From NCBI RefSeq assembly GCF_026163565.1, contig NZ_JAPDKN010000022.1, positions 1 through 64,000 of the forward strand: a stretch of 64,000 bases of DNA, given 5' to 3'. This stretch comes from Chryseobacterium sp. YIM B08800. Lineage in GTDB: Bacteria; Bacteroidota; Bacteroidia; Flavobacteriales; Weeksellaceae. Under the pieces are notes generated by a model, which was not told where the DNA came from, did no database searches, and saw only the letters and a list, made by a program, of their open reading frames with translations. Shown piece by piece: positions 19,913-24,663 of the stretch. The position numbers and the translations under genes are program-made. Every line of letters starts with the position of its first letter. The first letter of the stretch is position 1.

Positions 19913-22108
19913 TTACAAACTCAAAATAATTCCGTTTTCTTTTAATTGCTGCATTGGTTTTGAAAACCAGAATAATTCAAAATCATCAAATTTTTCTTCA
20001 AAATTAAGCTTAAGTTGCTGAAGTGTAATACGTTTCGGACTTTCAAAAGTGTTTTCAGAAATAATTTTTATCAGCCAGTCTGCTTTTTCCTGTTCTAGCT
20101 CTACCTTAACAATGTTGGTTCGTAAATGAAACGTAATTCTCGTATATGCCCATGAGTTCTGCTTTTTTGTTTTTACGTAATTCTCAGCGATTACGTTTTT
20201 CGCTAAAAATATAACTTTAGAATTTCCTTTAAAACTAAATTGATCTTCATCCAACAAACAGTCGTGAATATAATCTGGATGAATCGTTGTTTTCGGAATT
20301 TTAAAATCAAACCAATCCTGCAAAGGAATTTCAAAATTAATTCCGTGCATGAAATTGAACAGAGATTTTTTTAAACCAAAACTAAATTTACTGTGATCGA
20401 TTCCGGTTTTATCTTTGAAATCAATATCATTATTGGCAAATTTAATTTCCTGCTTAATTGGAGTCACTCCAAATTCTTCAGGGTTCTGCCCAACCGGAGA
20501 ATGTGCCGTCATTGCAAACTGATGCCAAAAACCACTTTGCAAAATTCCCATTTCAAAAAGCTGACGAACCATTTCCAAAGAATCTACAGTTTCCTGAATG
20601 GTTTGAGTAGGGTAACCATACATCAAATAAGCATGAACCATAATTCCTGCTTCGGTAAAATTTTTGGTAACTTTTGCAACCTGGTCTACAGAAACCCCTT
20701 TGTCAATTAATTTCAACAATCGATCACTTGCAACTTCAAGCCCGCCCGAAACCGCAACGCAACCCGAAAGTTTTAAAAGAAAACATAAATCCTGAGTGAA
20801 GCTTTTTTCAAAACGAATATTGGTCCACCAAGTTACGACAAGATTTCTTCGTAAAATTTCTAAAGCAACTTCTCGCATCAGAGCTGGAGGAGCGGCTTCG
20901 TCTACAAAATGAAATCCGGTTTCGCCTGTTGTTTTAATTAATTCTTCCATTCTGTCAACCAAAATTTTGGCAGAAATGGGTTCATAAATTTTGATGTAAT
21001 CTAAGGAAATATCGCAAAAAGTACATTTTCCCCAATAGCAACCGTGTGCCATTGTCAATTTATTCCATCTTCCGTCGCTCCATAAACTGTGCATCGGATT
21101 GGCAATTTCAATGACTGAAATATATTTATCTAATTGTAAATCAGTATAATCTGGAGTTCCTATTTCCGATTGTTTGTAATCGTGTTTGGTAGAATTATTT
21201 TTGTAGGTAACTTCTTGGTTTTCAATTAAAAAAGTTCTTTTGAAATGAGATTCTTCGTTTTGCTCAGAATGACAAACATTTTCATAAACTAATTCTAAAG
21301 GAACTTCACCATCATCTAAAGTGATGAAATCGAAAAATTCAAAAACTCTTTGATCTTTAATTTCTCTTAATTCAGTATTCGGAAAACCACCACCCATCGC
21401 AGTTTTAATGTGCGGATAATTTTCTTTTATAAATTTTGCTGAACGAAAAGCTGAATATAAATTTCCGGGAAAAGGAATTGAAAAACAAACAAGTTTAGGT
21501 TGAACCAATTCTAATTTTTTATGTAAGATTTTTAAGGTAAAATCGTCAATAAATGTTTGAGAATCATTTAGTTTTAAATATAGTTCGTCAAAAGAATTGG
21601 CAGATTTTCCTAATCTTTCAGCATATCTGCTAAATCCAAAATCTGAATCTACATTTTCAACAATATAATCAGATAAATCTTCTAAGTATAAAGTTGCCAA
21701 ATGTTTAGCTTTATCCTGAAGTCCCATATTTCCGAAAGCAAATTCCATATCATCCAACTGGTTGAATCGGGAAGCTTCGGGAAGAAAATTCATCGAACAG
21801 ATCTGTCTTGCCAAAGTAGGATTTTTATTCTGGAGAAATAAAATTACCTGATCGATTGTTTTTAAATATTCATCTCTTAAAGCAAAAATTCGCTGCGAGT
21901 TTTCTGAAATATTCTGCAGATCAATTTCGGTATCAAAAATTTTCTGAATTCCATCTTTTGAGAATAAGTCCAAAATCACTTCGATACCCAAATCAATTTG
22001 ATAGCTTGAGATATTTTTGGTATTCAGAAAACCTTTAATATAAGCTGTCGCAGGATAAGGAGTATTGAGTTGTGTAAAAGGCGGAGTGATGAGAAGGAGA
22101 TCTTTCAA
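19913..22108 (-). CDS. B12-binding-type radical SAM protein
   Basis: The 731-residue protein resembles B12-binding radical SAM enzymes: an N-terminal TPPFTQLNTPYPATAYIKGFL segment, a middle strand-loop FPNTELREI region, and the iron-sulfur motif CYWGKCTFC, with four rather than three residues between the first two cysteines. Later come GGLEVASDRLL and HAYLMYGYPTQT, typical of the SAM barrel. It probably uses SAM to make a radical on an unknown substrate. An in-frame block (CHSEQNEESH) is encoded by a dispersed repeat at 21246-21276. Confidence 0.8.
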   Translation of the reverse strand: MKDLLLITPPFTQLNTPYPATAYIKGFLNTKNISSYQIDLGIEVILDLFSKDGIQKIFDTEIDLQNISENSQRIFALRDEYLKTIDQVILFLQNKNPTLARQICSMNFLPEASRFNQLDDMEFAFGNMGLQDKAKHLATLYLEDLSDYIVENVDSDFGFSRYAERLGKSANSFDELYLKLNDSQTFIDDFTLKILHKKLELVQPKLVCFSIPFPGNLYSAFRSAKFIKENYPHIKTAMGGGFPNTELREIKDQRVFEFFDFITLDDGEVPLELVYENVCHSEQNEESHFKRTFLIENQEVTYKNNSTKHDYKQSEIGTPDYTDLQLDKYISVIEIANPMHSLWSDGRWNKLTMAHGCYWGKCTFCDISLDYIKIYEPISAKILVDRMEELIKTTGETGFHFVDEAAPPALMREVALEILRRNLVVTWWTNIRFEKSFTQDLCFLLKLSGCVAVSGGLEVASDRLLKLIDKGVSVDQVAKVTKNFTEAGIMVHAYLMYGYPTQTIQETVDSLEMVRQLFEMGILQSGFWHQFAMTAHSPVGQNPEEFGVTPIKQEIKFANNDIDFKDKTGIDHSKFSFGLKKSLFNFMHGINFEIPLQDWFDFKIPKTTIHPDYIHDCLLDEDQFSFKGNSKVIFLAKNVIAENYVKTKKQNSWAYTRITFHLRTNIVKVELEQEKADWLIKIISENTFESPKRITLQQLKLNFEEKFDDFELFWFSKPMQQLKENGIILSL
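21246..21276. repeat. TTTGTCATT-type repeat fragment within a gene
   Basis: The plus-strand TGAGATTCTTCGTTTTGCTCAGAATGACAAA matches the right end of the elements at 19770 and 36954. On the coding (minus) strand it gives CHSEQNEESH, with no frame break. Confidence 0.75.
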
Positions 22109-22170
22109 AAGGAATTTTTTTGCAAATTTATTCTAAATCTTTATGAATCTGTTTAGGTTTTGAAAAGTTT

Positions 22171-22211
22171 TGCCACGAATACACAAATAAAATATTCGTG
22201 CATTCGTGGCA
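22171..22211. repeat. TGCCACGAAT palindromic repeat, copy 2
   Basis: TGCCACGAATACAC at the left and its inverse CGTGCATTCGTGGCA at the right, with a shorter loop than copies 1, 3, 4 and 5. Confidence 0.85.
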
Positions 22212-22234
22212 ATTATAAAAAATTATGTTTAGTC

Positions 22235-23509
22235 TTAAATTTCTTTGAAACTTAAACCTTGTTCAGATAGTAATTTTTGCTCCTGCTCTTTGTAGTGTCC
22301 ACTTTTTAATTTGTCGTGAATAGCATCAAACGCAGCTAATGTTTCGTTAATTTCTGCATCTGTGTGAGAAGCGGTAGGAATTAATCTTAATAAAATCATT
22401 CCTTTAGGGATTACAGGATAAACCACTACAGAGGTGAAGATTCCGTAATTTTCTCTCAAGTCTTTTACCAAAAGAGTTGCCTCTACTGGAGAACCTTGCA
22501 TCATTACCGGAGTTACACAAGTATTGGTATCACCAATGTTGAAACCTCTTTCGCTAAGTCCGTTTTGTAATTTTAGGGTATTTTCCCAAAGTTTAGCTTT
22601 AATTTCAGGTCTTGTTCTTAGCAATTCCAATCTTTTCAAACCTCCGATTACCATTGGCATTGTTAAAGATTTAGCAAAAATCTGAGATCTTAAATTGAAT
22701 TTCAAATATCTGATGATTTCTTTATCACCTGCGATAAATGCTCCGAAACCAGCCATTGATTTTGCAAAAGTTGAGAAATAAACATCAATCTGATCCTGAC
22801 ATCCTTGCTCTTCTCCAGCTCCGGCTCCTGTTTCACCGAGAGTTCCGAAACCGTGTGCGTCATCAACTAAAAGTCTAAAGTTGTATTTTGATTTTAATTC
22901 GCAGATTTCTTTCAGTTTACCTTGTTGTCCTCTCATTCCGAAAACCCCTTCAGTAATTACCAAAATACCACCACCAGTTTCTTCTGCAACCTTAGTTGCT
23001 CTTTTAAGATTTTTCTCAAGACTTTCAATATCATTGTGTCTGTAAGTAAATCTCTTACCGGCATGAAGTCTTACACCGTCTACGATACAAGCGTGAGAAT
23101 CTACGTCGTAAACAATTACGTCATTTCTGCTTACCAAAGCATCGATGGTAGAAACCATTCCCTGGTAACCGAAATTTAATAAATATGCTGAATCTTTTTG
23201 TACGAATTCTGCCAATTCCTTTTCCAGTTGCAAATGCTGATGCGTTTCACCAGACATTGCTCTTGCTCCCATCGGATAAAACATTCCGTATTCTGCGGCA
23301 GCTTTAGCATCTGCTTCCAAAACTTCAGGATGGTTGCACATTCCCAAATAATCATTAGCACTCCAGAAAATTACTTCTCTTCCCTGAAACTGCATTCTCG
23401 GGCCGATAGGACCCTCTAGTTTAGGGAAAATAAAATATCCTTCACCATAATCTGCAAACTGTCCAAGAGGTCCTGGATTTTCTTTTATTCTTTCAAAAAT
23501 ATCCAACAT
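22235..23509 (-). CDS. PLP alpha-oxoamine synthase, candidate cysteate fatty acyltransferase
   Basis: The 424-residue protein has the alpha-oxoamine synthase fold (AONS, KBL, serine palmitoyltransferase): NDYLG at 52-56, a stacking His139 in VDSHACIVDG, the DDAH of VDDAHGFGTLGE at 216-219, and the PLP lysine at Lys250 in STFAKSMAGFGAF. In this family the enzyme condenses an amino acid with an acyl-thioester. The upstream gene is a cysteine-synthase-like protein, which fits cysteate plus acyl-CoA giving capnine (sulfonolipids). Biotin or sphingolipid use is the alternative; no bioF neighbours are seen. Confidence 0.8.
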   Translation of the reverse strand: MLDIFERIKENPGPLGQFADYGEGYFIFPKLEGPIGPRMQFQGREVIFWSANDYLGMCNHPEVLEADAKAAAEYGMFYPMGARAMSGETHQHLQLEKELAEFVQKDSAYLLNFGYQGMVSTIDALVSRNDVIVYDVDSHACIVDGVRLHAGKRFTYRHNDIESLEKNLKRATKVAEETGGGILVITEGVFGMRGQQGKLKEICELKSKYNFRLLVDDAHGFGTLGETGAGAGEEQGCQDQIDVYFSTFAKSMAGFGAFIAGDKEIIRYLKFNLRSQIFAKSLTMPMVIGGLKRLELLRTRPEIKAKLWENTLKLQNGLSERGFNIGDTNTCVTPVMMQGSPVEATLLVKDLRENYGIFTSVVVYPVIPKGMILLRLIPTASHTDAEINETLAAFDAIHDKLKSGHYKEQEQKLLSEQGLSFKEI

Positions 23510-23530
23510 TATTATTCGTAATTTTTTAAG

Positions 23531-23571
23531 TAAAAAAGCCTTTTGTGGATTACAAAAAAGGCTTTACTTGT
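23531..23571 (-). terminator. Terminator between the two PLP genes
   Basis: AAAGCCTTTTGT pairs with ACAAAAAAGGCTTT-type sequence in inverted orientation, with a T run on the minus strand after the upstream gene. It may only attenuate read-through, since no clear separate promoter for the downstream gene was found. Confidence 0.6.
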
Positions 23572-23586
23572 ATTTGTATTAAAATT

Positions 23587-24624
23587 TTATTTAATGATTT
23601 CGGTCTTAAAGACTTCTTCGTAATTGTGAAAACAATTATTAACGAAACCTTGCTCAGCCATCCATTTATCACTGTAAACTTTGGTAATGTATCTCGATCC
23701 GTGATCCGGGAAGATCAAAACAACCAAATCATTTTCTGAAAACTGGTGAGAATTGGCATACTGCATTAATCCCTGAGTAACTGCACCGGTTGTGTAACCT
23801 CCCATAATCGCTTCTTTTAAAGCAATTTCTCTGGTTCTGTAAGCAGACATTTCGTCGTTTACTCTTACAAACTCATCGATTTTATCAAAAAGAAGAGCGG
23901 AAGGAATTAAATTTTTTCCCATTCCTTCAATCTGATAAGGATGTACATCTTCTTTGTGAATCTCTCCGGTTTCGTGGAAACTTTTTAAAATAGATCCGTC
24001 TGCATCAACACCGATAATTTTGATATCAGGGTTCTTCTCTTTTAAGAATTTTGCAGACCCGGATAAGGTTCCACCAGTACCCGTACAAGCAAAAAGGTGA
24101 GTAATTTTTCCTTGAGTCTGCTCCCAAATTTCAGGACCGGTTGTATGATAGTGCGCATCAATATTCAGCTCATTAAAGTACTGATTGATATACACCGAAT
24201 TTGGAGTTTCAGCAGCAATTCTCTTCGCTACTTCATAATATGATCTCGGGTCATTCGCAGGTACATTCGCAGGACATACATAAACTGTAGCTCCAAGAGC
24301 CTTCAGATAAGCTATTTTTTCGGGTTTTGTCTTGTCGCTCACCGCTAAAATGCATTTGTATCCTTTAATGATGCAAACCATTGCAAGTGAAAAACCGGTA
24401 TTTCCTGAAGTGGTTTCTACAACTACAGAATCTTCCTTTAATAAACCTTTTTTCTCAGCGTTTTCTATAATATGAAGTGCGATTCTATCTTTAGTGGAAT
24501 GTCCAGGATTATATGATTCTAACTTAGCATAAATGGTGGCAGGAATTTCTTTAGTTACGGTATTTAGTTTTACCAAAGGGGTACTCCCAATTAAGCCAAG
24601 AATATTATCGTAAACATTACTCAT
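23587..24624 (-). CDS. Cysteine-synthase-like PLP enzyme, candidate cysteate synthase
   Basis: The 345-residue protein has the O-acetylserine sulfhydrylase fold: a PLP lysine at Lys45 in GHSTKDR, the phosphate/substrate loop TTSGNTG (71-77), and GTGGTLSG. It is longer than CysK and lacks its C-terminal tail. Next to an alpha-oxoamine synthase, the likely role is cysteate production (O-phosphoserine or a related substrate plus sulfite) for sulfonolipids. Cysteine or cystathionine synthesis remains possible. Its -7 box is at 24656 on the minus strand. Confidence 0.78.
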   Translation of the reverse strand: MSNVYDNILGLIGSTPLVKLNTVTKEIPATIYAKLESYNPGHSTKDRIALHIIENAEKKGLLKEDSVVVETTSGNTGFSLAMVCIIKGYKCILAVSDKTKPEKIAYLKALGATVYVCPANVPANDPRSYYEVAKRIAAETPNSVYINQYFNELNIDAHYHTTGPEIWEQTQGKITHLFACTGTGGTLSGSAKFLKEKNPDIKIIGVDADGSILKSFHETGEIHKEDVHPYQIEGMGKNLIPSALLFDKIDEFVRVNDEMSAYRTREIALKEAIMGGYTTGAVTQGLMQYANSHQFSENDLVVLIFPDHGSRYITKVYSDKWMAEQGFVNNCFHNYEEVFKTEIIK

Positions 24625-24655: not shown

Positions 24656-24663
24656 CAAAAATA
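24656..24663 (-). promoter_or_regulatory. Putative -7 box of the cysteate-synthase-like gene
   Basis: Minus strand TATTTTTG, matching TAnnTTTG, 32 bases before the ATG at 24624. Confidence 0.5.

Follow-up and report, generated by a model that had tools for sequence, protein, structure and literature searches.

The question raised by this locus is whether a cysteine-synthase-like enzyme and the alpha-oxoamine synthase encoded next to it form the start of a sulfonolipid pathway, i.e., whether one makes cysteate and the other joins it to a fatty acyl group, or whether they belong to cysteine, biotin, threonine or sphingolipid metabolism. The window, by which we mean the whole stretch of DNA that was analysed, covers positions 1 to 64,000 of contig NZ_JAPDKN010000022.1 of Chryseobacterium sp. 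YIM B08800, which has a 4.24-Mb genome. Both genes lie on its minus strand, where Cys is transcribed first and is followed, after 77 bp, by CFAT:

23587..24624, minus strand: Cys, 345 aa, predicted CapA-type cysteate synthase (CapA model 545.1 bits, structure 9k2p 439.6 bits, tree, residue signature)
22235..23509, minus strand: CFAT, 424 aa, predicted cysteate fatty acyltransferase of the CFAT/CapB/SulA type (28eh and 7u7h matches, residues, tree)

The coordinates, strand and gene order given in the first-pass annotation, along with its choice of Lys250 as the PLP lysine, agree exactly with the ORF positions and with an alignment to SulA, and family models bear out its description of a cysteine-synthase-like enzyme (PALP family) directly before an alpha-oxoamine synthase. 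Among the loci compared, the nearest named relatives were Chryseobacterium species, the CFAT of C. formosense being 96% identical. Scans of the window for Rfam families (at gathering scores) and tRNAs returned nothing.

The 424-aa protein is assigned to the alpha-oxoamine synthases by family models, and its top two PDB matches are 28eh (652.8 bits), which is named 'Cysteate-C-fatty acyltransferase', and 7u7h (565 bits), with serine palmitoyltransferase (SPT) next at 230. According to the text of PMC9304779 available to us, 7u7h is the Alistipes finegoldii SulA structure described there, though the PDB record carries another name. The comparison with characterised CFATs that had been proposed as a check came out at 652.8 and 565 bits, versus 230 or less for SPT, KBL and BioF structures. 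The alignment recovers the catalytic residues of the superfamily (N52, H139, D216, H219, T247, the PLP lysine K250, and R375), and K280 falls at the position of SulA Lys281, a CFAT marker. A lysine occupies this position in all 68 CFAT-type rows (the window, 11 Weeksellaceae and 56 class-wide sequences), as opposed to none of 15 SPT rows (Ala in 15/15), none of 12 KBL rows (Asn in 12/12) and one of 11 BioF-like rows; the tree puts one row labelled as BioF-like, L275, among the CFATs. The CFATs fall within a single starred group of this quick tree of 68 rows, and the SPT, KBL and remaining BioF-like rows lie outside it. Long-branch warnings were raised for it, including for the stems SPT/CFAT and KBL/BioF-like, and the branching order among the four groups is unsure because long branches meet in the tree.

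A sphingolipid pair, with the synthase being serine palmitoyltransferase and its neighbour an ordinary cysteine synthase, would share the same alpha-oxoamine synthase superfamily, and three SPT models do match the window CFAT at 214-286 bits. The best of these (NF047600, 286.2 bits), however, falls well short of the 640 set as its cut-off, K280 stands where 15/15 SPT rows have Ala, SPT makes up a separate tree group, and no match to NF047600 was found in the window genome at E 1e-130, so that we consider a sphingolipid pair very improbable. Likewise, the scores of 290.2 bits with KBL and 269.7 bits with BioF could be taken to place the synthase in threonine or biotin metabolism, but both are under their cut-offs (460 and 426.45, respectively), both groups stand apart in the tree, and the genome has a separate KBL over the cut-off (L002, 630.8 bits) as well as a BioF-like gene (L003, 299.6 bits, under its own cut-off). 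These two genes sit on other contigs, and inspection by eye of the ORFs in the 14-34 kb part of the window agreed with the earlier statement that the pair has no bioF neighbour. A BioF or KBL identity is in our view extremely improbable. The clustering with BioF or KBL that the first-pass annotation had named as evidence against its own reading did not occur; the protein falls in a separate CFAT group and has the CFAT lysine. The 424-aa protein is supported by these comparisons as a cysteate fatty acyltransferase of the CapB/SulA type. Genomes G377 and G431 of the window's family each have an additional CFAT that shares 61% identity with the one in the window.

The partner's assignment as a cysteate synthase is less firm than that of CFAT, since Cys falls under the NCBI CapA cut-off. 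This 345-aa protein, a PALP family match, carries TKDR at residues 44-47, TSGNTG at 72-77 followed by F78-S79, and a GKN motif with K237-N238. Against the NCBIfam CapA model NF053679 it scores 545.1 bits, under the equivalog cut-off of 600, and we therefore do not claim the NCBI CapA equivalog label for it. Within the class sample described below, the eight proteins over this cut-off all come from one family, f2, the three from the window's genus score 545-548 bits, the one in genome G142 scores 508.5, and all others reach at most 492.6. The nearest solved structure, 9k2p (439.6 bits), is titled merely as a PLP-dependent protein beta subunit. In the Cys tree, the window protein, 14 Weeksellaceae and the eight over-cut-off f2 CapA rows come together with an SH-aLRT of 99, and the grouping persists with an SH-aLRT of 93 when six CFAT-linked rows are added, L298 then lying inside the group. 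In a quick tree, this Cys/CapA group also stands apart from CysK rows and from L005, the window genome's CBS-like paralogue, which is 50% identical to Cys and scores 442 bits with CapA and 428 bits with CBS; the rows labelled CysM in these trees and alignments are CysK by NCBIfam where checked (2/5). The archaeal type of cysteate synthase (TIGR03844) had no match in the window genome at E 1e-60. The first-pass proposal of a cysteate-making partner thus holds as far as the grouping with CapA in the tree is concerned and falls short at the NCBI cut-off (545.1/600).

A residue signature accompanies this grouping. Among the columns that are invariant in the 23 CapA-clade rows and distinguish them from the 25 CBS-type rows are F78-S79 and K237-N238, for which the CBS type has Met-Gly and Glu-Asp; Lys-Asn at 237-238 recurs in all 23 further rows, which had been picked by similarity to the window Cys or by their place beside CFAT. 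Three CFAT-linked homologues (L305, L308 and L315) keep the Lys at 237 while the other signature positions vary; the motif is GKS in L305 and GKK in L315, where SGNTG is followed by Ile-Gly. The structure 9k2p has GKN, with Tyr-Ser after TSGNTG, and CBS-type residues occupy 78-79 and 237-238 in the three f52 proteins whose branches lie close to the CapA clade. The loop holding 237-238 faces the substrate in CBS enzymes, and we therefore propose that K237 may be the anion-binding change. In the literature searched, which did not include the original CapA report or any report on 9k2p, we found no description of a Gly-Lys motif that sets CFAT-linked cysteate synthases apart from the CBS-type enzymes compared here. 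Together, K280 of CFAT and the Gly-Lys motif of its partner could sharpen genome surveys: at E 1e-20 the window CFAT matches KBL, BioF and SPT models as well, and E 1e-20 is the level at which Cys and CFAT were mapped according to the available text of PMC11211663.

The missed CapA cut-off would also fit a reading in which CFAT is identified correctly and its neighbour works chiefly as a cysteine or cystathionine synthase that stands beside it by chance, with cysteate coming from elsewhere. That no CapA was seen in many class-sample genomes with CFAT would fit such a case, as would the result of a search with Cys as query at E 1e-3, which found no CysK in the window genome; due to this, Cys could also serve cysteine synthesis. 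On the other hand, the genome has a second, CBS-like gene, L005, which may have a role in cysteine synthesis; Cys groups with CapA; the Gly-Lys motif is common to CFAT-linked homologues and absent from the 25 CBS-type rows; and Cys of this type is never found without CFAT in the order sample described next. We judge a chance neighbour of this kind to be improbable. The 345-aa protein as a CapA-type cysteate synthase is supported by tree and signature. CysK is present in some relatives (cf. L158 and L159).

In 76/80 related loci, Cys comes immediately before CFAT, with a gap of 67-116 bp (median 78.5), an arrangement kept too often to be due to chance. One of the four exceptions, L034, is cut by a contig end, and CFAT stands alone in L058, L082 (Bergeyella) and L084 (Riemerella). 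The Bergeyella and Riemerella genomes carry Cys at another place (81-83% identical), and no Cys was found at E 1e-30 in the L058 genome, a 1.5-Mb MAG. In a wider order sample of 148 genomes, searched at E 1e-90 for CFAT and E 1e-120 for Cys, CFAT was found in 84 genomes and Cys in 41, and every one of these 41 also has CFAT. Cys is at most 400 bp upstream of CFAT in 28 of the 41, i.e., in 19/19 genomes of family f1 and 9/20 of family f2, adjacency being lost in 11 of the 20 f2 genomes that carry both genes. The two are 1.1 kb apart in G310 and 1.8 kb apart in G316, and within genus g2 they are non-adjacent in all ten genomes having both. Outside the window's order, a GKN-bearing CapA-like gene adjoins CFAT in G142.

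At the threshold of E 1e-120, 43 of the 84 CFAT genomes show no Cys. We read the neighbourhoods, which are of unequal length, for 21 of these 43 and found three divergent Cys genes (L305, L308 and L315) that either adjoin CFAT or are separated from it by a short-chain dehydrogenase (SDR), one SDR alone beside CFAT (L304), and two weaker SDRs in opposite orientation (L300 and L301); 14 of the 21 showed neither Cys nor SDR in the stretch examined. In G385 (L297), the last of the 21, the Cys beside CFAT is split between two frames, by sequence error or as a decayed gene, and for this reason falls under the threshold.

A radical SAM protein of 731 aa (19913-22108, minus strand) is encoded downstream of CFAT in the window. 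It is under every NCBIfam cut-off, its best match, at 82.8 bits against a cut-off of 281.85, being a RiPP C-methyltransferase subfamily, and several of its matches are B12-binding types. We considered it as a third member of the unit and rejected it: among the 80 loci, such a gene is at most 400 bp downstream of CFAT in 11, farther away in 48 and not found in 21, in some of which the contig ends soon after CFAT, and in the window a long hairpin separates it from CFAT.

This hairpin is one of three elements that may bear on expression of the pair:

24656..24663, minus strand: candidate -7 promoter element TATTTTTG, matching TAnnTTTG, 31 bp before the Cys ATG
23535..23565, minus strand: hairpin running into a T-run in the gap between Cys and CFAT, present in 68/77 sequences
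22170..22212, minus strand: long hairpin in the gap between CFAT and the radical SAM gene, from a fold of the 126-base gap of the window (-30.2 kcal/mol for the whole gap)

TAnnTTTG is the consensus of the Bacteroidota -7 promoter element. It occurs within 130 bp upstream of Cys, 27-34 bp before the start, in 76/76 sequences (75 loci and the window), as opposed to 12% of mononucleotide shuffles. Against a promoter role, none of the 76 has an exact TTTG where a -33 partner would lie. Within 150 bp before CFAT, the motif is present for 3/3 lone CFAT genes and in 7/76 paired loci. As to the gap between the two genes, a custom hairpin-plus-T rule detects the intergenic hairpin in 68/77 sequences (76 loci and the window), compared with a mean of 0.55 and a maximum of 2 over 20 rounds of mononucleotide shuffles. 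A generic terminator scan did not list it, and the two matches that the scan returned equal the shuffle mean. The hairpin is a candidate for a leaky terminator, an attenuator or a processing site; no description of a conserved Cys-CFAT hairpin was found in the literature searched. We infer that Cys and CFAT probably form a single transcription unit in which transcription stops in part between the genes; one promoter before Cys would drive both, and the gap hairpin may lower expression of CFAT. The long hairpin downstream of CFAT is a possible boundary of this unit, as judged from its predicted fold.

Taken with the CFAT grouping, K280, the grouping of Cys with CapA and the 41/41 co-occurrence, the preference of the first-pass annotation for a sulfonolipid route over biotin or sphingolipid synthesis is supported, and the pair very probably encodes the first two steps of sulfonolipid synthesis. 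This call is based on orthology, active-site residues, conserved gene order and co-occurrence, with substrates and products taken over from characterised relatives. Cys would swap the phosphate of O-phospho-L-serine for sulfite, which is what CapA uses, yielding L-cysteate. CFAT would then bind cysteate on the PLP held by Lys250 and condense it with a fatty acyl thioester, with loss of CO2, to give 3-ketocapnine, and the last steps to sulfobacin-type lipids would fall to a short-chain reductase and an N-acyltransferase whose genes lie elsewhere.

The pair is another instance of a published pathway that is already known, including for Chryseobacterium gleum. In C. gleum, a species of the same genus, the same two activities, Cys and CFAT, are reported to catalyse the first and second steps of the pathway (Hou et al. 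2022, as cited in the available text of PMC11211663, which also tested the CFATs of six bacteria in E. coli); orthology to the window pair would follow from how the two genes are conserved throughout the genus. For the Cap enzymes of Capnocytophaga (CapA and CapB) and Ornithobacterium (CapC), CapA is described as making cysteate from phosphoserine, CapB as making 3-ketocapnine and CapC as reducing it (Liu et al. 2022, going by what PMC10191378 and PMC11211663 say of it in the parts available). Of these, the CapA and CapB types are present in the window, and the points of difference are that no reductase gene adjoins the pair and that its Cys is under the CapA cut-off. Alistipes finegoldii SulA (7u7h, PMC9304779, as far as its accessible text goes) is matched by the window CFAT at 565 bits and has the same PLP lysine and the same extra active-site lysine. 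The characterised Alistipes CFAT uses acyl-ACP as the acyl thioester, and Alistipes is said in the accessible part of PMC10191378 to use an archaeal cysteate synthase homologue rather than CapA. Fjoh_2419 of Flavobacterium johnsoniae is a CFAT of the same family as that of the window, and fjoh_2419 is needed for sulfonolipid synthesis in that species (Vences-Guzman et al. 2021, as related in the available text of PMC9304779 and PMC12045153). Sulfonolipids are unusual membrane lipids that contain sulfur. They have been connected with gliding motility, with the balance of the outer membrane and with effects on inflammation in the host, according to the portions of PMC9304779, PMC10191378 and PMC12045153 at hand. 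Confirming the pair allows the window genome to be called a likely sulfonolipid producer.

Related clusters may hold the next step as well. An SDR lies between Cys and CFAT in L298 (f74), L299 (f80, where a cupin-like gene is found there too) and L308 (f79), and in L304 (f77) an SDR precedes CFAT without Cys. These four SDRs are 39-46% identical to one another; those of L298 and L299, the two that were scanned, match many general SDR models under the cut-off, with 135 and 141 bits for 3-ketodihydrosphingosine reductase (cut-off 400). Their place in the clusters fits a 3-ketocapnine reductase step. The C. gleum and A. finegoldii reductases are unlinked to cfat and Cys, per the available text of PMC11211663.

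We also followed both steps through a class sample of 295 genomes, with thresholds of E 1e-90 for CFAT, at least 508 bits for the CapA clade and E 1e-60 for TIGR03844. CFAT was found in 258/295 genomes, CapA-clade scores in 12 and the archaeal cysteate synthase in three, all 15 being CFAT-positive, which leaves 243/258 CFAT genomes with neither at the thresholds used. We would like to note that 243/258 is an upper figure because divergent CapA proteins such as L315 exist, the CFAT-positive genomes G152 and G179 hold a second PALP match, and the residues of single matches were read in 22 cases (19 CBS-type and the three f52 rows). No candidate cysteate gene emerged among the CFAT neighbours in 40 class-sample loci (three from the window's order); the neighbouring gene families were common to at most 15/40 loci, two of them being what we take to be bamD- and recN-like, and PALP proteins were near CFAT in 3/40. 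No description of this gap between CFAT and known cysteate synthases was found in the literature searched. A tentative proposal, which we hold to be possible and somewhat short of probable, is that a CBS-type enzyme became a cysteate synthase by a small active-site-adjacent change (Gly-Glu-Asp to Gly-Lys-Asn, giving K237, and Met-Gly to Phe-Ser after TSGNTG), and that most CFAT-bearing Bacteroidia, having neither CapA nor the archaeal type, make cysteate by another route.

Additionally, the class sample bears on how sulfonolipid and sphingolipid genes are distributed. The available text of PMC10191378 raises the possibility that one of these lipid classes excludes the other. SPT scored over its cut-off in 23 class-sample genomes, 14 of which carry CFAT too, so the SPT and CFAT routes are not exclusive at the gene level, and at that level at least this overlap does not fit the suggestion.
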